This document shows positions 9,848 to 23,851 of a stretch of DNA of 23,851 nucleotides, one piece after another. Location: IMG/VR virus record IMGVR_UViG_3300028895_000848, positions 1-23,851 of that record. The stretch is one strand, 5' to 3'. The position numbers were made by a program, and so were the translations under genes. The notes beneath the pieces are model-generated. The model made no database searches. It was not told the origin of the DNA and saw only the letters and a program-made list of their open reading frames with translations. Source of the DNA: a virus. Numbering within the stretch: position 1 is the first letter of the stretch; every line of letters begins with the position of its first letter.

Positions 9848-11290
9848 ATGGGATTAAGACCAAATGTAAGAGTTGACGTCCGTGAAGCTCTGACGTTGCA
9901 AGAACAGGCCGGACCGGGTATCGTGGCCATAATTGGTACAAGCACATGGGGGCCAATAGAAAGCATGCAAACGCTTGCTAGCTTCTCCCAAGGATTGAAT
10001 GTGTTCAAGGATGACAAAGACTCATCCGGAGCTACAATCAGCTTGCCAAAGGGACTCGACCTTCTCTATAGAGATGGTGCCGGCGTTGTACTTGCAGTAC
10101 GTGTTGCAGATACTGATGCTGCCAAATCAGACGAAGTGTTTGATGGAAACAGCGGAGGAGAAGCAGCAGTACTTACGTTCAGTGGACTTTACGAAGGGAC
10201 GTACGGAGATAACATTGGTGTAACGATCACCGCTGATGGAGCGACCCGAACCGTTGAAGTTACAGACGGCCAGCTATTGGAAGTCTATAGCAACAATGGT
10301 AATGGGTATACCACGAACGCGGCAATCGCTGCAGCAATCAACGGAACAAGCCAACTAGTATCAGTGGCAGTGAAAGCAGGAAGTGAATCAGCAAATCTTG
10401 TAGATGCAATCACACAGACTTTTTTGTCTGGGGGAGACGACGGAGAAGATTCTCTCGTAGCAGCAGACTACACAGATGCGTTTGATAACGTCTTGAGTAA
10501 TGAGGATTTTGACATCCTAGTTATTCCAGGTGGAGACGCACTTGAAGCACTAGATAGCTTCCACGCTACGATGGTAGGTAAGCTCAACACACGAGCTTCA
10601 ACAGAAGATAAGTTCGCGATATTCATGTCAGGAATTGGCATTGATGAAACAATCGCAACAGCTTCAGCACGAACAGCAAGTGGAGCAAGACTTTCATTAG
10701 TTGCGCCGAATTTGAAGTACACACATCGAGCTGATGGCACAGAGCAAGTCTTCAACGGCTCATATCTGGCATGTAGTTATGCAGCAAGAACAGCAAGCGG
10801 ACTGCCTCATATTAGCCCAACGCATAAGACGTTGAATGTTGAAGGAGTATCTGTATTGCAAAGTACAGGTAAAGAGTACTACAACAACGGAGAGCAAGAG
10901 CAACTACTTCAGAATAGAATTGTACCGATCACAAAGATTGGAACATCAATTCAAGCGTCAAGAGGAGTAACTCGAGATGCAGATACGTCAAGTATCTTCT
11001 ATGAAGTAAACATCGTGAGAATTGTAGACTATGTAAAGGCACAAGTCTTTGACAAACTCAATCCATTCGTTGGAGATCCGAACCTACAACGCATCCGTAA
11101 TATTATGGCGCGAGAAGTAGACGGTCTTCTTGAACAGGATAAACTTGACGAGATCATTGTGGCTTACAATGCTACAGATGTAGCTGAAGGTTCTAGTCCG
11201 GACACTGTACTGGTGACTATGTCAATCAGGCCAACGTTCGCGATTAACTTCATCAACGTGACACTGAACATCAGTCAGGTGAGTGAGTGA
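9848..11290 (+). CDS. Tail sheath protein, 480 aa
   Basis: The sequence shows the sheath pattern. The N-terminus (GPGIVAIIGTSTWGPI) matches the conserved 'v.iiG.a..GP.' opening. A middle beta domain (residues 100-190, with GTYGDNIGVTITADG) forms the outer insert. The region from about 210 on (DFDILVIPGGD, then LSLVAPNLKY and GLPHISPTHKTLN) fits the conserved sheath core. The C-terminus carries YYNNGEQEQLLQNRIVPIT, the VRIVDYVKAQVFDKLN helix and a closing strand ending FINVTLNISQ, which form the inter-subunit mesh. The length is typical for contractile sheaths. The tube gene follows 11 bases later. This gene is the main proof that the virus has a contractile tail. Confidence 0.93.
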   Translation: MGLRPNVRVDVREALTLQEQAGPGIVAIIGTSTWGPIESMQTLASFSQGLNVFKDDKDSSGATISLPKGLDLLYRDGAGVVLAVRVADTDAAKSDEVFDGNSGGEAAVLTFSGLYEGTYGDNIGVTITADGATRTVEVTDGQLLEVYSNNGNGYTTNAAIAAAINGTSQLVSVAVKAGSESANLVDAITQTFLSGGDDGEDSLVAADYTDAFDNVLSNEDFDILVIPGGDALEALDSFHATMVGKLNTRASTEDKFAIFMSGIGIDETIATASARTASGARLSLVAPNLKYTHRADGTEQVFNGSYLACSYAARTASGLPHISPTHKTLNVEGVSVLQSTGKEYYNNGEQEQLLQNRIVPITKIGTSIQASRGVTRDADTSSIFYEVNIVRIVDYVKAQVFDKLNPFVGDPNLQRIRNIMAREVDGLLEQDKLDEIIVAYNATDVAEGSSPDTVLVTMSIRPTFAINFINVTLNISQVSE

Positions 11291-11301: not shown

Positions 11302-11706
11302 ATGGTTAATCAAAGAATTTCAGCAAAAGACGTGATCTTCAGTGTAGACGGGAACATCATTGGCGGCGCAGAAGGTATGGACGTGTCCGTATCAGCTGAC
11401 AATGAAGTTGCTTTCGAAGCAGGAACGTATTACGGAGTAGAAGTAGTTGACGGCAAAAAGAACGTAAGCGGTACGTTGAACAGAGCATACATCGACAATG
11501 AAACGTTGAATGAGCTCTTTCCACCAGACTTGGGCGTATGGCCAGCAATTACCATTACAGCATCAGTTGTATCAGGTAAGGAACCGGCTCGTACGATCAC
11601 AGTACTAGGTGCGAAGTTTGATGGCTTTGACATAAACAGTCTAGAACTAGATGGTTATGCAAAGAACGCGCTACCGTTCAAAGCACTCAACTGGCAACTG
11701 CTCTAA
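11302..11706 (+). CDS. Tail tube protein, 134 aa
   Basis: A compact beta protein of the size usual for contractile-tail tube subunits. It begins ISAKDVIFSVDGNIIGGAEG, continues with a 'VSVSADNEVAFEAGT' strand pair, a KNVSGTLNRAYIDNETLNEL loop-helix and a closing FDGFDINSLELDGYAKNALP, matching the '.sl..d..g.......G.i.......N' rhythm of tube proteins. It lies immediately after the sheath gene and before a T-rich terminator, as expected for a very abundant product. GAGGTAAGCG upstream serves as its ribosome site. Confidence 0.88.
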   Translation: MVNQRISAKDVIFSVDGNIIGGAEGMDVSVSADNEVAFEAGTYYGVEVVDGKKNVSGTLNRAYIDNETLNELFPPDLGVWPAITITASVVSGKEPARTITVLGAKFDGFDINSLELDGYAKNALPFKALNWQLL

Positions 11707-11731
11707 ATTTTTTTCTTTCTTTTTGAAAGAA
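11707..11731 (+). terminator. T-rich hairpin terminator, copy 2
   Basis: After the tube stop comes a seven-T run (11708-11714) overlapping an inverted repeat TTCTTTC (11713-11719), five-T loop, GAAAGAA (11725-11731). It is the same element as at 537-564. Both are followed by a related block, AAACCG then GA, GGTGAA and the next start codon. It probably lowers transcription of chaperone and tape-measure genes relative to the tube. Confidence 0.65.
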
Positions 11732-11761: not shown

Positions 11762-12007
11762 ATGAGAGAAATAACAACGGTAGAGAAGACGAAGACGAAG
11801 AAGATCTTTCAGTTCACTGAGGACGAGTTCCGACTAGGTGACTGGTGCAAAGATCTTGAGGTCATTCCAGATGGACCACATGTGGAAATGACGTACTCTT
11901 CGCGAAATGGGATTATGGTAGTTCATAATTTGAACGAGATAAAAGTCAAAGAACTTGATAAAGGCGAGAAGCCAGAGGAAACACAAGATGACAGACAAAA
12001 AGACTAA
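11762..12007 (+). CDS. Small tail assembly-region protein, 81 aa
   Basis: ATG 11762 has GGTGA at 11753-11757. The protein begins with a basic stretch (TVEKTKTKKIFQFTEDEF), contains a small beta region (VEMTYSSRNGIMVVHNLNEI) and ends in a charged tail. It overlaps the tail assembly chaperone gene by 20 bases. Its position between tube and chaperone suggests a role in tail morphogenesis. No family is recognised. Confidence 0.75.
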   Translation: MREITTVEKTKTKKIFQFTEDEFRLGDWCKDLEVIPDGPHVEMTYSSRNGIMVVHNLNEIKVKELDKGEKPEETQDDRQKD

Positions 12008-12389
12008 GCCTGAATGGCTTACATTAAACACAGACGGTACAGTTACGGTTGAGACGCGTGAGGGAAGCTTTACGTTGGCTGAACCTAACGGAGAACAATA
12101 TGAGCAGGTTGACCGTGTAGCATCACGGATCGAACACATATCTGATTTCACAAAGGGGTTGATGCTTGTAGCAAAAGCACTTGTGACACCAAAGATTGGT
12201 GAGCAAGATCTGAAGAAATACAAGATCAGTACTTTGAAGAGATTAGTCGATGGAATAAATGTGTTTGCTGACGAGGACATGTCTTTTTTGTGGGAGCAGA
12301 TGAGCTCTACGAAACAGACGAGTGGGAACGTCTCAAGCTCATCGTCAGTCTCCGCTACAGAAAAACCCCTGACGAAATCAGGAGAATGA
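11988..12389 (+). CDS. Tail assembly chaperone, short (zero-frame) form, 133 aa
   Basis: ATG 11988 has GAGG at 11975-11978, nine bases upstream. Between tube and tape measure this is the classic place of the tail assembly chaperone, and the sequence has its usual features: GSFTLAEPNGEQYEQVDRV near the N-terminus, then helices DFTKGLMLVAKALVTPKIG and YKISTLKRLVDGINVFADED. The last 30 residues are low-complexity Ser/Thr, and over that same stretch the -1 frame encodes an ordered-looking sequence. These proteins coat the tape measure during tail assembly. The short form is expected to be the major product, as in lambda gpG. Confidence 0.75.
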   Translation: MTDKKTKPEWLTLNTDGTVTVETREGSFTLAEPNGEQYEQVDRVASRIEHISDFTKGLMLVAKALVTPKIGEQDLKKYKISTLKRLVDGINVFADEDMSFLWEQMSSTKQTSGNVSSSSSVSATEKPLTKSGE

Positions 12390-12457
12390 CTAGAAGAGAT
12401 TTGCTAAAAGCATACTCATACATCAAATACGCAGATGATCACAAAGAAGACGGCTGA
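11988..12457 (+). CDS. Tail assembly chaperone, -1 frameshift fusion, about 156 aa
   Basis: Reading zero frame to 12290 and then the -1 frame from 12290 gives 101 plus 55 codons and ends at TGA 12455-12457. The -1 part (ELYETDEWERLKLIVSLRY, then RKTPDEIRRM and RRDLLKAYSYIKYADDHKE) is helical and well ordered and has the 'P.ei....r.dl..a..y' pattern of the second part of chaperone fusions such as lambda gpGT. This extra domain binds the tape measure. The alternative is a separate 23-residue frame from ATG 12386, but that would leave the good upstream sequence untranslated. The frameshift signal is described as a separate feature. Confidence 0.72.
12284..12343 (+). promoter_or_regulatory. -1 programmed ribosomal frameshift signal
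   Basis: The heptamer T TTT TTG (12284-12290) is in the correct phase for tandem -1 slippage (X XXY YYZ). After an eight-base spacer comes a perfect 8-bp stem, GATGAGCT (12299-12306) with AGCTCATC (12336-12343). Inside its loop is a second 5-bp stem, AGACG (12316-12320) with CGTCT (12329-12333). This is the standard layout of a stimulated -1 frameshift site. Confidence 0.75.
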
Positions 12458-12472
12458 AAGAGGTAAAAGATC

Positions 12473-13942
12473 GTGGTAAACTTCGAAGTCAACATGGACT
12501 TCAGTAAGAGCATTAGTCAAGCTAACGCTCTATGGAAGAAGACAAGTAGCCTTCAGAGTAATTTCTTTGCAGCGAAGAAAGAAGCTGAAGGAATGCGAGA
12601 TGCACTTCAAGATAGTGTTAGGCAACTTCGAATGTCAGGAGCATCTTTAGAACAGGTTGCAGCACTAGAAGGTAGTGTTGCGAATAAGATGCAAATGCTT
12701 GAATGGAGATTGCAAGATGTAAACGATCAGCAAGAAGCATTCAATGAACTTGTCGGTCATGGCGGAGATCAATTAGCAGACGTCATCAGTAGGATCCCTC
12801 TTATTGGTGGATTACTATCACCAATGTTTAGACGACCGTTAGATAGGTTGAATGATATGAACATGTCAATGGGCCGCTTCAATAAAGCGTTTGCTACATT
12901 GACGAAAGATGGTAAATCACTAGATTCTGTTTTCTCTGGGTTCTTCCAGAATTTCTCCACTAACATAGCGACGTTCGGTAAGAACTTCCACAAAGCATTC
13001 TCCGGAGGGGCGACGGCGATGCTAAAGAATATCCCCACTATCTTCAGTGGTATAGCAACAAGCGCTGGTGCACTGATTCCAGTTCTGGCCAGCATCGCCC
13101 TCCCTATTCTTGGTATTGTAGCTGCAGTGTTCACGCTCAAAAAGATTTGGGATTTGAACATTGGCGGCATTCAGAAACAAGTGTTTGGATTGATGGGTGT
13201 TTTCAGAGATGTGTTTGGAAAGACGATGATCAATTTCCAGAAGTCTCTTCAGAAGCTTGGGCCTCTATTCAAACTCATCTTCACTCCCCTCTTCACAATC
13301 TTAAAAGGTGTTGGAAAACTACTTGGTGGATTGTTTGATGGAGTATTCGCTATCATTGATCCGATCTTGGATGTGATTAATGAAATATTTGCACCTCTAG
13401 CTGAAGGACAATCACAAGCAATGGGTCTTGTTGATGTCTTCGGTATTCTTGCTGATACACTTCGTGTTGTTGGTAAGATCGTCGGGTTCGTCTTGAAAGT
13501 TGCACTTACTCCAATGAAGTTGATGTTTAGAGTTGGTATGGCAATTGGAAAGGTACTCGCTGGATGGGTCGGAAAATTCATGAAGCTTAAGTTCGTACAG
13601 AACTTCGTTCAGAGAGTGAAGGATAACTTTGAGATGTTGAAATCAGTGTTGGAAGCATTACTCAAACCGTTCAAATTCCTAATTGAAGGCTTTGAAAAGA
13701 TCAGTAATTTCTTAGGAGGAGACGAGGAGAAAGAGATAAAGGTAAAAGATGTATCTCCAGGTGCAGCAGGGATATCACCAGCTGGAAGACCTGTTACTTC
13801 TGTCAATAATACATCAAGCAGAGTGATCAACAATAATCCGAACATTACAGTGCAAACAAGTAGAGAGATCAGTGGAGCTGGCGGGAAGCAGTTTGCAAAT
13901 ACACTTGGAGGTATGCTGTCTAGTCAGAATGCAGCATTGTAG
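12473..13942 (+). CDS. Tail tape measure protein, 489 aa
   Basis: GTG 12473 has AGAGG at 12459-12463 as ribosome site; ATG 12494 is an alternative. The first 150 residues are helical and polar. Residues about 183-223 are strongly hydrophobic (IFSGIATSAGALIPVLASIA, then ALPILGIVAAVFTL), a usual tape-measure membrane segment. Further amphipathic stretches rich in Gly, Leu and Phe follow (for example GVGKLLGGLFDGVFAIIDP). The end is low complexity. Tape measures set tail length and help DNA entry; at roughly 1.5 angstrom per residue this would fit a tail of about 70-75 nm, an inference from the family rule. It follows the chaperone gene as expected. Confidence 0.85.
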   Translation: MVNFEVNMDFSKSISQANALWKKTSSLQSNFFAAKKEAEGMRDALQDSVRQLRMSGASLEQVAALEGSVANKMQMLEWRLQDVNDQQEAFNELVGHGGDQLADVISRIPLIGGLLSPMFRRPLDRLNDMNMSMGRFNKAFATLTKDGKSLDSVFSGFFQNFSTNIATFGKNFHKAFSGGATAMLKNIPTIFSGIATSAGALIPVLASIALPILGIVAAVFTLKKIWDLNIGGIQKQVFGLMGVFRDVFGKTMINFQKSLQKLGPLFKLIFTPLFTILKGVGKLLGGLFDGVFAIIDPILDVINEIFAPLAEGQSQAMGLVDVFGILADTLRVVGKIVGFVLKVALTPMKLMFRVGMAIGKVLAGWVGKFMKLKFVQNFVQRVKDNFEMLKSVLEALLKPFKFLIEGFEKISNFLGGDEEKEIKVKDVSPGAAGISPAGRPVTSVNNTSSRVINNNPNITVQTSREISGAGGKQFANTLGGMLSSQNAAL

Positions 13943-17263: not shown

Positions 17264-17449
17264 ATGAAAGAAAAAATTATCGAAAGCATTCATGCGACGA
17301 GATCGCACTTTGAAGGTAAGCAATGCTCTACTCCATCTTACTTCAGACATTTAGAAAAGGAATTTAGATTACGTGATCTAAATGTACCTGCAGATGAGTT
17401 GAAGAAAGCATTGAAAGAGAAGATTCAACAAGGAGGGTTTGTAGTATAA
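17264..17449 (+). CDS. Small helical protein between wedge genes, 61 aa
   Basis: ATG 17264 starts two bases after the wedge stop; the TAA overlaps the next ATG (TAATGG). The product looks like three short helices (EKIIESIHATRSHFEG, PSYFRHLEKEFRLRDL, then a basic KKALKEKIQQGGF segment), perhaps a small winged-helix or helix-turn-helix-like fold. No family can be given. Two-sided overlap with essential baseplate genes supports that it is expressed in the same operon and may be a minor baseplate part. Confidence 0.7.
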   Translation: MKEKIIESIHATRSHFEGKQCSTPSYFRHLEKEFRLRDLNVPADELKKALKEKIQQGGFVV

Positions 17450-19539
17450 TGGCAGCGGTACAATTCACAGTCAAACCACTGAACGACATCATCAGCGATT
17501 TATTGCTGAACGTGTTCAACAATATTAATGACGTCACTGACGGGAACGCAGGAGGTATCATGCGCCAGATGCTTGAAGCTGTTGCACAAGAGATCAGTTT
17601 GCTTTACGATCAATTGCAAAATATCTACGATGGCTCAAGAGTTAGTACAGCTATCGGAACAGATCTAGAAGAGATAGGTCTTCTTGTTGGAGTTGATAGA
17701 AAAGACGGAACGAACTCAACCGGGTTTGCGTCTTTCATTAGAAATCAAGTTGCAGGAGCTGATTTTACAATCTCTGCTAATTCAATCGTGTCTACTCAGC
17801 CAAATACAGGTGAGGAGCAACTCAGATTCCTAGTAGCTAGTGATACGATATTTGATGCTGACATTGATGCAGAATCACATGATTATGTTGACGGTCTACT
17901 TTACTATCCAATGGATGAACGACTTATTGATAGCGTTCAGCAAGTTTCAGCAACGGTAAGTGCTACTCCCGGTACCATTCTTACTCAAGGTGTTGATTAC
18001 GAAATCTCCTCAGTCTCGAATCAATTGATAGTCGATCCAAATGCTGTTCTTCTCGTTGATGACTGTGAGACAGCTAATTGGACAGAGAGCGCAGATGCAA
18101 CAGCTGATGCTCTTGACGCTGTTGACTTTATTCAAGGTGCAAATTCATTAGATCTTGGTAAATCTGGAACCAGCTCAACACTTGCAAGCTATGAGAAAGT
18201 TCTTGGAACTGTTGTAGACGGTACTGATAAAGATATGCACCTAAGTTTGAAGATCATTGATAACACAGCTCTTGCGAAGATTGACAGGATTGAAATTACA
18301 TATGGCTCTGGTGGAGATGCGACTAATGCATACACATTGAGTTTTTCAAATTCCGACCTAGCTGATGCAGTCGGAAGTTTCTATAGATTCTTCATTGACA
18401 GGACAGACACTGAACTTACACAAACAGGCTTTCCAAGTGTTGCAGCAACGAACTTTATCAAGATCGATATTTACACAAATCTTGCAGGAGACGTCCTCAC
18501 ATCTGGTGATGTGAAGATGGACTTCTGGTTCTTTGGGGATAGTTCACTCTACTCAGGAGACACAATCAAATTCATAACAACAGGAACAGTTCCAGACGAT
18601 GGCACATCATTCTTAGTTGATTACAAACCGCTTTCGAAAGAAGTTCCAATCATCAGTGAAGATGTCGGAGCAAAATATAATGTTGGTGCAAACAAGATCG
18701 TATTCAAGGTATCGAGTATTCCGAGTGTTGACGCGGTCAACAACTACGAAGCAACAGAAGGCGGAACAGATATTGAGACGGATGACGAACTTCGCGATCG
18801 CATCCAAGAATCAAGTCTTGCAGGAAAAGCAACAGCCAGTGCAATTCGTCAAGCAGTTTTAGCAGTGGACGGGATTACTTCAGTCACAGTCGATGACCTA
18901 CCACGAAAGACTGCAACGGACGAAGTGCACCGATATGCAATTGCCACTGATACATACAAACTTGACTTTGAAGTCGCGCAAGATACAGCAACGCTCGATG
19001 TAGAAGGCACATTGTCAGCGACACCAGGACACACTTTCGTTCAGAACACTGACTTCGTACTTGATTCATCGAGTCAGATTGTCTGGCAAGGCGGTGGAGA
19101 TAACCCAGATGATGATACCGACTTCTTTGTCGATTATGACTATGACTGGCTTGGGCATGTAGAGGTATTTGTGTCAGGAACACAATCTCCACTACCAGCA
19201 AGTGTACTGTCTGATGTTGATGATGCGATCGAAGATACAAGAGCTGCAGGAGTGATCGTGACGGTGCTTGAACCAACTGTTGTGACAATTGATGTGACAG
19301 CAACGATTGTAGTAGAAGGTGGTGCAAGTACAGCGACTGTTTTAACAGCGGTAGAAAGCGCGCTAAGGACATATTTGAATACGCTTGATGTAGGAATAGA
19401 CATCTTCAGATCAGAGCTTATACGGATCATACAAGAAACGGAGGGAGTATCAAATAGCACTTTGACTGTACCAGCTGCTGATGTTACAATCGATGTCGAT
19501 GAAGTAGCAAAGGCTGGAACGCTCACGATTAGTGTCTGA
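17449..19539 (+). CDS. Baseplate J-like wedge protein with inserted beta domain, 696 aa
   Basis: The flanking parts are typical baseplate J: an N-terminal helical region with YDQLQNIYDGSRVSTAIGTD, then LEEIGLLVGVDRK; a core with EGGTDIETDDELRDRIQESS and RQAVLAVDGITSVTVDD; and a C-terminal 'RTYLNTLDVGIDIFRSELIR' element. It also has two copies of a small beta module: residues about 165-190 plus 378-394, and about 517-566 (both with SATPG, a DY/DF element and a final 'DxTxFxVDY'). The first copy is split by about 165 residues (203-368) that look like a carbohydrate-binding jelly roll (starting DDCETANWTES). Most J proteins have 300-500 residues, so this one is long. It forms the wedge with gp25- and gpI-like proteins. 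Confidence 0.85.
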   Translation: MAAVQFTVKPLNDIISDLLLNVFNNINDVTDGNAGGIMRQMLEAVAQEISLLYDQLQNIYDGSRVSTAIGTDLEEIGLLVGVDRKDGTNSTGFASFIRNQVAGADFTISANSIVSTQPNTGEEQLRFLVASDTIFDADIDAESHDYVDGLLYYPMDERLIDSVQQVSATVSATPGTILTQGVDYEISSVSNQLIVDPNAVLLVDDCETANWTESADATADALDAVDFIQGANSLDLGKSGTSSTLASYEKVLGTVVDGTDKDMHLSLKIIDNTALAKIDRIEITYGSGGDATNAYTLSFSNSDLADAVGSFYRFFIDRTDTELTQTGFPSVAATNFIKIDIYTNLAGDVLTSGDVKMDFWFFGDSSLYSGDTIKFITTGTVPDDGTSFLVDYKPLSKEVPIISEDVGAKYNVGANKIVFKVSSIPSVDAVNNYEATEGGTDIETDDELRDRIQESSLAGKATASAIRQAVLAVDGITSVTVDDLPRKTATDEVHRYAIATDTYKLDFEVAQDTATLDVEGTLSATPGHTFVQNTDFVLDSSSQIVWQGGGDNPDDDTDFFVDYDYDWLGHVEVFVSGTQSPLPASVLSDVDDAIEDTRAAGVIVTVLEPTVVTIDVTATIVVEGGASTATVLTAVESALRTYLNTLDVGIDIFRSELIRIIQETEGVSNSTLTVPAADVTIDVDEVAKAGTLTISV

Positions 19540-22365: not shown

Positions 22366-23016
22366 ATGGGAACGAAATACGAAGTTGACAACGCCGGGAA
22401 CATTTCAGGCGAGACTGTAGTCCTAGCTTCGCAAGCTACTGATCCAGTCTCACCAGTTGAAGGGCAGTTGTGGTATAACAGCACAGACGAAGTGTTGAAA
22501 GTACGCAACAGTACAACATCAGAACCGATTGGAGCAAGCGGCTGGGTAAAGATAAGCGACACTGATCTAAGTGGTGGTGCAGCTACAAGTTTGAGCAGCG
22601 CTACTTTGACTGAAGCATATGAGAATTATCGAATTCAAATTTACGGCGAATTTGATGCAACAACAGCTGGAGTAGGATTAGAAATTAATGGAGATTCTGG
22701 TTCTAATTACCAACAGAACTACATCAAATGGTCTAACACAACAGCGACAGCGAATGATGCAACAGGTTCAGATTATAGAATACACACTGAAGGTAATGGT
22801 AGTGATTACTTTACAGCCATGATTGAGATCTTTAAAATCGCTTCGGATAGAGCTTTGATCTCACATCTTGGAGGATCAGGAGATCAAAATGGGGGCGGGT
22901 ATACTAGCACCGGAATGTGGACTGGCACTGGAGATATAACAATCTTCAAGATCCAGAAGAGCGCAGGTAACTTCACAACAAAAACCCGTATGGTTGTATG
23001 GGGGTGGAAAGACTAA
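22366..23016 (+). CDS. Distal tail fibre/receptor-binding protein, 216 aa
   Basis: A strong GGAGGAAAG ribosome site precedes ATG 22366. The first 60 residues repeat the joining element of the previous fibre: VSPVEGQLWYNSTDEVLKV, then RNSTTSEPIGASGW. The rest looks like a compact beta-sandwich (YRIQIYGEFDATTAGVGLEI; 'YFTAMIEIFKIASDRALISH'; closing TKTRMVVWGWKD), similar in feel to fibre tips that bind carbohydrate. It is likely a receptor-binding part mounted on the shaft. The stop overlaps the next start (TAATG). Confidence 0.8.
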   Translation: MGTKYEVDNAGNISGETVVLASQATDPVSPVEGQLWYNSTDEVLKVRNSTTSEPIGASGWVKISDTDLSGGAATSLSSATLTEAYENYRIQIYGEFDATTAGVGLEINGDSGSNYQQNYIKWSNTTATANDATGSDYRIHTEGNGSDYFTAMIEIFKIASDRALISHLGGSGDQNGGGYTSTGMWTGTGDITIFKIQKSAGNFTTKTRMVVWGWKD

Positions 23017-23851
23017 TGGTAGAGAATAGAAGTAGTCTGTTGATGACGCCTACTCCAACAGCGAGTGCGCCAACAGCAGCACAAGGAGCAATGTATTACG
23101 ATAGCGACGATGGTGAGATGAAGATTAGTAACGACGGAGCAACATTTGAAGCATTAGGTGGTGCTGCTGGATTTGTACCTTCTCTTGGAGATGGAAGTGA
23201 CGGAGCAGTTACTATAAGCTCGAATACCACGCTTTCAGAAAGTAAGCAATACACTGACTTGACGATTGACGCTACGTACACGCTTACAGTAAAATCAGGC
23301 GTCACCATTCAATGTACTGGCACGTTCACGAACAACGGTGCCATCACAGCATCCACAGTACCTGGAACAGGAGCGGCAGGCGTAGCAGATACTAACAAAG
23401 GAAACGCTGCTAGCGGAGACGCTGGAGATGGAGGAGGTAACCTGAACATCTTTTGCGCAACGTATGCCGGCGACGGCGTATTCAACGCTAACGGAGGTGC
23501 TGCCGCTAGCAGCACCGCCCCTAGCGCAATTGATGGTGATAACGCTGGGCCAGGAGGAAACCCAGGAGTAGCGCCCAGCACAGTCATAGGAGCCCTCGTT
23601 GGAGCGAGTGCAGCTGGAGGTGCTTCGAGTCCCACAGGCGGTTCAGGCGGAGAGGCAGCCGCTGTACTGAATTGGGCGTTAATCGACCTAAGAACTTGGG
23701 GTTTGTTCGCTGGAGGCGGTGGCTCAAGCGGTGGTATCGGTGAATCCCACACATCAGGAGGTTATCCTGGTGGTGGAGGCGGTGGTGCTGGAGGCAGTCT
23801 TGGAGGCGCAGGCGGAAATGGCCTGAACGGAGGAAACGGCTCAGCTTCTAC
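23016..23851 (+). CDS. Glycine-rich distal adhesin, partial at window end, at least 278 aa
   Basis: ATG 23016 overlaps the previous stop (TAATG); the frame is open to the end of the window, so the C-terminus is missing. The start repeats the joining element in diverged form (SAPTAAQGAMYYDSDDGEMK, then ISNDGATFEALGG). A beta region (SKQYTDLTIDATYTLTVKSG) leads into a long Gly/Ala-rich part with NNGAITA, AGGNGLNGGN-like and a six-Gly run near 23770. This is the composition of phage tip adhesins with polyglycine helices, such as the gp38 type, though sequence homology cannot be tested here. The base composition rises in G+C because of glycine and alanine codons. Confidence 0.8.
   Translation, partial: MVENRSSLLMTPTPTASAPTAAQGAMYYDSDDGEMKISNDGATFEALGGAAGFVPSLGDGSDGAVTISSNTTLSESKQYTDLTIDATYTLTVKSGVTIQCTGTFTNNGAITASTVPGTGAAGVADTNKGNAASGDAGDGGGNLNIFCATYAGDGVFNANGGAAASSTAPSAIDGDNAGPGGNPGVAPSTVIGALVGASAAGGASSPTGGSGGEAAAVLNWALIDLRTWGLFAGGGGSSGGIGESHTSGGYPGGGGGGAGGSLGGAGGNGLNGGNGSAS

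Follow-up and report, generated by a model that had tools for sequence, protein, structure and literature searches.

A probable −1 ribosomal frameshift at a conserved U-run heptamer in a likely tail assembly chaperone locus of a contractile-tailed, probably archaeal virus

The tail assembly chaperones gpG and gpGT of bacteriophage lambda are encoded by a gene pair lying between the tail tube and tape measure genes (Xu, Hendrix and Duda, 2004, as described in PMC5009743). According to the accounts in PMC5009743 and PMC8211752, a −1 frameshift has been proposed in the tail chaperone genes of the haloarchaeal siphoviruses HVTV-1, HCTV-1, HCTV-2 and HCTV-5, and one has also been proposed for the tail chaperone of Hardycor1, with the site G GGA AAT (PMC7911831). 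Where these accounts give an archaeal site it is G GGA AAN or A AAA AAC. For haloarchaeal myoviruses a +1 chaperone shift has been proposed, without a conventional slippery sequence, in HSTV-2 (as treated in PMC8211752) and in the HF1 group (PMC7230728). A 2021 review records one experimentally studied cellular −1 case in archaea, fucA1 of Saccharolobus solfataricus, together with predictions in a few haloarchaeal viruses (PMC8211752). We have studied a gene in two overlapping frames in the virus record IMGVR_UViG_3300028895_000848 of IMG/VR (positions 1–23,851; this 23,851-nt stretch is called the window, and coordinates refer to it unless a relative is named). The gene lies between the tail tube and tape measure genes of a virus with a sheathed tail. 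We consider it highly likely that this is a locus for tail assembly chaperones of the kind known from lambda G/GT, expressed by a −1 frameshift, and that the virus has a contractile tail and infects an archaeon.

The coordinates of the two frames and their neighbours are collected in Table 1. The zero frame contains the heptamer T TTT TTG in the correct phase for slippage, with TTT and TTG as zero-frame codons (X XXY YYZ), and the −1 frame is open from the heptamer to its TGA stop codon, as the original prediction had stated. On the scheme that we infer from sequence, which extends to the occurrence of the shift and its rate, the majority of ribosomes would read the zero frame to its end and produce the 133-aa chaperone. 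A minority, decoding TTT in the P site and TTG in the A site of U UUU UUG, would slip back by one base with both tRNAs, re-pair on UUU UUU and follow the −1 frame, giving a 156-aa fusion protein whose C-terminal domain is predicted to be helical. If the products act as lambda gpG and gpGT do, the part shared by both would coat the tape measure protein, and recruitment of the tube protein would fall to the rare C-terminal part. The zero-frame residues that follow the heptamer are rich in serine and threonine and are not conserved, which agrees with the low-complexity tail that had been described.

In-phase X XXY YYZ sites in which Y is A or T are rare, with only six in the 7320 codons of the window. 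A second in-phase TTTTTTG is found at position 10420, inside the sheath gene, where it has no evident role. Given that such heptamers are rare but not unique, and that one of them lacks an evident role, the heptamer alone proves nothing, and conservation must carry the case.

Relatives were sought with profiles of the sheath and tape measure proteins, and a single clearly diverged relative covering the shift site (L005) was found in this way. The only other results of these searches were a weak sheath fragment (L017) and contigs with essentially the sequence of the window. A two-sequence alignment of the tube protein then recovered seven further relatives (L038–L044). The comparison thus comprises nine loci, the window and eight independent diverged relatives. 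In each of the eight relatives the gene order is tube, an open reading frame (ORF) of 68–81 aa, the N-terminal part of the chaperone, its C-terminal part in the −1 frame, and tape measure where the contig extends that far.

Is the slippery site itself conserved? An in-phase T TTT TTR is present at the matching place in seven of the eight relatives, and thus in eight of the nine loci; it reads T TTT TTG in the window, L038, L005, L039, L040, L041 and L042, and T TTT TTA in L044. Given the encoded residues and the codon usage of each locus, and assuming independence, T TTT TTR would be found at the eight sites together with a probability of approximately 1.3e-7. Seven of these sites have TTG and not TTA, against the general preference for TTA in the AT-rich loci (p ~0.007). 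The frames also confine the place at which a shift could occur. The nearest upstream −1 stop codon lies just before the heptamer in most loci, and the stretch permitting a −1 shift, which includes the heptamer, is 16–118 nt long, narrowing to 16–25 nt in L044, L040 and L039. In L040 a zero-frame TAG stop codon directly follows the heptamer.

The product of the −1 frame is conserved as well. The fused protein is 45% identical to its L005 counterpart, and conservation of the −1 part continues across the join. Among the window, L038 and L005, differences in the −1 frame fall on third positions 36 times against 24 and 17 at the other two, 32 against 23 and 22, and 38 against 25 and 20, the excess being clearest beyond the overlap of the frames. 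The original prediction had named two outcomes that would count against it, namely relatives keeping the two frames without the heptamer, and a −1 frame free of purifying selection. With the heptamer retained in seven of the eight relatives and substitutions concentrated on third positions, both came out in favour of the frameshift.

Transcriptional slippage at runs of T or A is an established alternative means of fusing frames (reviewed in PMC5009743). In this case RNA polymerase would slip on the six-T run, and the fusion would be encoded by those mRNAs, a minority, that lack a U or carry one too many. While the conserved element is indeed a homopolymer run, it is exactly six T in each of the eight heptamer loci and never longer, and slippage of this kind would require neither the constant X XXY YYZ phase nor the preference for G over A after the run. 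In L043 the run is only five T. We therefore regard transcriptional slippage as improbable. It is more improbable still that the −1 frame is a separate gene, translated by coupled initiation at GTG 12290 with no fusion. In the window the −1 frame resumes after the heptamer with this GTG, and GAGGA is found upstream of it, but other loci do not keep the start codon. L038, L005 and L044 encode Ala, Asp or Thr there, and in L039 and L040 the listed ORF has its first start codon deep within the homologous domain. A separate gene would also leave the conserved T TTT TTR codons unexplained. Lastly, a single base change would join the frames, as might be expected of a sequencing error or a decayed gene, but this reading is refuted by conservation, since the same layout is present in three further assembled contigs of essentially the same sequence as the window and in the eight diverged relatives.

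Returning to the −1 frameshift, we examined what might stimulate it. The original prediction placed a hairpin after an 8-base spacer (12291–12298), and both the spacer and the hairpin, an 8-bp stem with a nested 5-bp stem, are present where they had been described. As a conserved stimulator, though, the hairpin must be rejected. The folding energy of the window stem is the same as that of dinucleotide shuffles (z ~ −0.6), and the stem is not kept in the relatives; L005 has no counterpart of it, and among the nine loci a strong downstream stem is found only in L041 (z −3.2). A perfect 8-bp stem in that register occurs at just 0.5% of window positions, and for this reason the stem may help the shift in this virus, outside the conserved machinery. 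A Shine-Dalgarno-like stretch upstream, scored against the tail of 16S ribosomal RNA, was likewise rejected as a general stimulator. It is outstanding only in L038 and L041, where no other position in the gene scores as well; it is moderate in L042 and ordinary in the window and the remaining loci.

A wider generalization can be offered tentatively, and we think it somewhat doubtful as a whole. An entire clade of contractile-tailed viruses, infecting archaea other than haloarchaea, might rely on −1 slippage at U UUU UUG, where the last place would favour G and no downstream structure would be conserved. Local aids would differ between lineages, the window and L041 having a stem, L038 and L041 an upstream Shine-Dalgarno-like stretch, and the others neither. 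If this were true, archaeal ribosomes would need little RNA structure to shift at a U run, and the rules that govern frameshifting in archaea could be compared across many natural sites.

What is the protein? The N-terminal domain was modelled with a mean predicted local distance difference test score (pLDDT) of 81. Its best match among solved structures is to chains of the HK97 tail assembly chaperone 2OB9 (Foldseek probability 0.95, E 0.05), and in a viral structure library its matches include named tail assembly chaperones of several phages and of the Halobacterium virus ChaoS9. Three of the nine members give weak matches to Pfam Phage_TAC_5 (best E 0.004) and to PHROG 389, XkdN-like (best E 0.001). 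A profile of the chaperone alignment found no match among solved structures. The −1 domain is predicted to form ordered helices (mean pLDDT 86), in line with the earlier description; a fold search with it gave no significant match, with tail assembly chaperones among the weak matches only. These profile and fold lines are individually weak, and their combination with the position of the gene makes the assignment as a tail assembly chaperone likely.

Some observations weigh against the interpretation as a whole. The chaperone homology is remote, with no match above the Pfam cut-off and a template modelling (TM) score of about 0.45 for the fold match. The hairpin is not kept in the relatives and folds with ordinary stability. 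No canonical heptamer is present in L043, which at the expected place reads CTT TTT CAG (L043:6928–6936), in which the TTT codon alone could re-pair; this might allow a single-tRNA −1 slip at best, or it may be a degenerate site. Finally, relatives or proviruses were sought in 84,980 species genomes and none was found.

The archaeal character of the virus, which had been proposed from its promoters, is supported by further evidence. TATA-like sites number 23 in intergenic DNA against a mean of 4 in shuffles, at a density of 2.8 per kb compared with 0.08 per kb in genes. A promoter-like element, TRATTATTTTTAAATA(AG), is repeated before genes at 1246, 5977, 8801, 16403 and 19547, and recurs in other contigs (L026 at 3340 and 13591, both on the minus strand; L038 at 7654; L039 at 3580; L043 at 3686; and L044 at 12067). 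It is probably the late promoter of this virus group. Of the 40 matches of gpJ, 39 are haloarchaeal viruses. The matches of TerL are mostly haloarchaeal, the best-ranked being a Methanofastidiosa virus. For PolB the best-ranked match is a Halorubrum virus, and most of the matches are bacteriophages. The identities of the gpJ, TerL and PolB homologues are low, mostly 22–35%. Taken together, the TATA boxes and the homologues in haloarchaeal and Methanofastidiosa viruses make an archaeal host well supported.

Table 1. Features of the window around the two-frame gene
Feature	Position	Strand	Remarks
Tail sheath protein gene	9848..11290	+	Contractile tail, myovirus-like; PHROG 279, E 7.5e-39; Pfam sheath C-terminal domain
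Tail tube protein gene, 134 aa	11302..11706	+	Weak tube/virion profile matches; placed after sheath
81-aa ORF between tube and chaperone	11762..12007	+	Overlaps chaperone start; homologues in nine of nine loci
Zero frame, likely tail assembly chaperone short product, gpG-like, 133 aa	11988..12389	+	ATG 11988; stop ends at 12389
Slippery heptamer T TTT TTG	12284..12290	+	In phase with zero frame; same class in eight of nine loci
−1 frame, likely C-terminal extension, gpT-like, 55 codons (12290–12454), TGA 12455–12457	12290..12457	+	Predicted helical
Candidate stem-loop, 8 nt after heptamer	12299..12343	+	Outer 8-bp stem 12299–12306/12336–12343; nested 5-bp stem 12316–12320/12329–12333
Tape measure protein gene, 489 aa, GTG start	12473..13942	+	PHROG tape measure profiles; L005 homologue 35% identical
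gpJ (baseplate gene)	17449..19539		

The order of genes in the window is sheath, tube, 81-aa ORF, two-frame gene and tape measure, followed by baseplate genes including gpJ. The tube protein is 67% identical to that of L005, with best-segment identities of 44–76% in seven further viral contigs. The ORF that follows it is conserved, at 68–81 aa across the loci, and overlaps the start of the chaperone in most of them; comparison with Pfam gave no credible family match. Directly after the tube gene is a T-rich tract (11703–11728), found at the same place in L038, L005, L039, L040, L042 and L044, and thus in seven of the nine loci. It is similar to the oligo-T terminators of archaea, and its effect could be that the chaperone is transcribed less than the tube. 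At the far end of the window (22366–23851) are two consecutive tail-fibre-like proteins whose motifs are alike (SPVEGQLWYNSTDE and APTAAQGAMYYDSDDG); of these proteins the second is very glycine-rich and runs off the end.

The GC content of the virus is moderate, at 43%. The virus is extended by IMG/VR contigs essentially identical to the window, one of them 62.5 kb long, and from their overlaps a full genome size near 69 kb is suggested. On the extended virus there are matches to terminase, portal, capsid, family B DNA polymerase with an intein, ATP-dependent ligase, helicase, dUTPase and thymidylate synthase; a search for tRNA genes found none. The polymerase of this virus is located at L027:5910–9347, and its intein contains a LAGLIDADG domain.

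The original prediction had held the site worth reporting because −1 frameshifting in archaea is little studied. That remains so, but the phenomenon is not new, counterparts having been proposed already in archaeal virus chaperones (PMC5009743, PMC8211752, PMC7911831), and the locus is therefore a clear new example rather than a new phenomenon. The prediction holds in substance but goes too far on the hairpin and on novelty. The clade offers the same site in nine divergent natural forms, which share a core and differ in what surrounds it, and these are a ready set for testing what archaeal ribosomes require in order to shift, and the lambda-like system of length control is extended to another group of archaeal viruses.

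How does the locus compare with the systems described before? As in lambda, the chaperone gene pair lies between tube and tape measure. The slippery site is U UUU UUG here and G GGA AAG in lambda, the host is probably archaeal, an additional conserved ORF of 68–81 aa precedes the chaperone, and no sequence homology to the proteins of lambda was detectable in the searches made. HVTV-1, the HCTV viruses and Hardycor1 share with it a proposed −1 shift in the chaperone of an archaeal tailed virus, but these are siphoviruses, whereas the virus studied here has a contractile tail, moderate GC content and a U run at the site. HSTV-2 and the HF1/HF2 group are closer in architecture, being sheathed archaeal viruses with the order tube, two chaperone ORFs and tape measure, and with distant homology in gpJ and TerL. 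Their proposed shift is +1 in place of −1, and the sheath, tube and major capsid proteins of the present virus found no match among phage records. Membership of the Hafunaviridae (HF2-like) was considered and rejected on the sheath, the tube and the direction of the shift. The fucA1 case shares a −1 frameshift on a heptamer in archaea, but it concerns a cellular gene with an A-rich site and is not conserved as a viral structural strategy. What is new here is the clade, the conserved U-run site with its preference for G, and a shift of −1 rather than +1 in a contractile-tailed archaeal virus.
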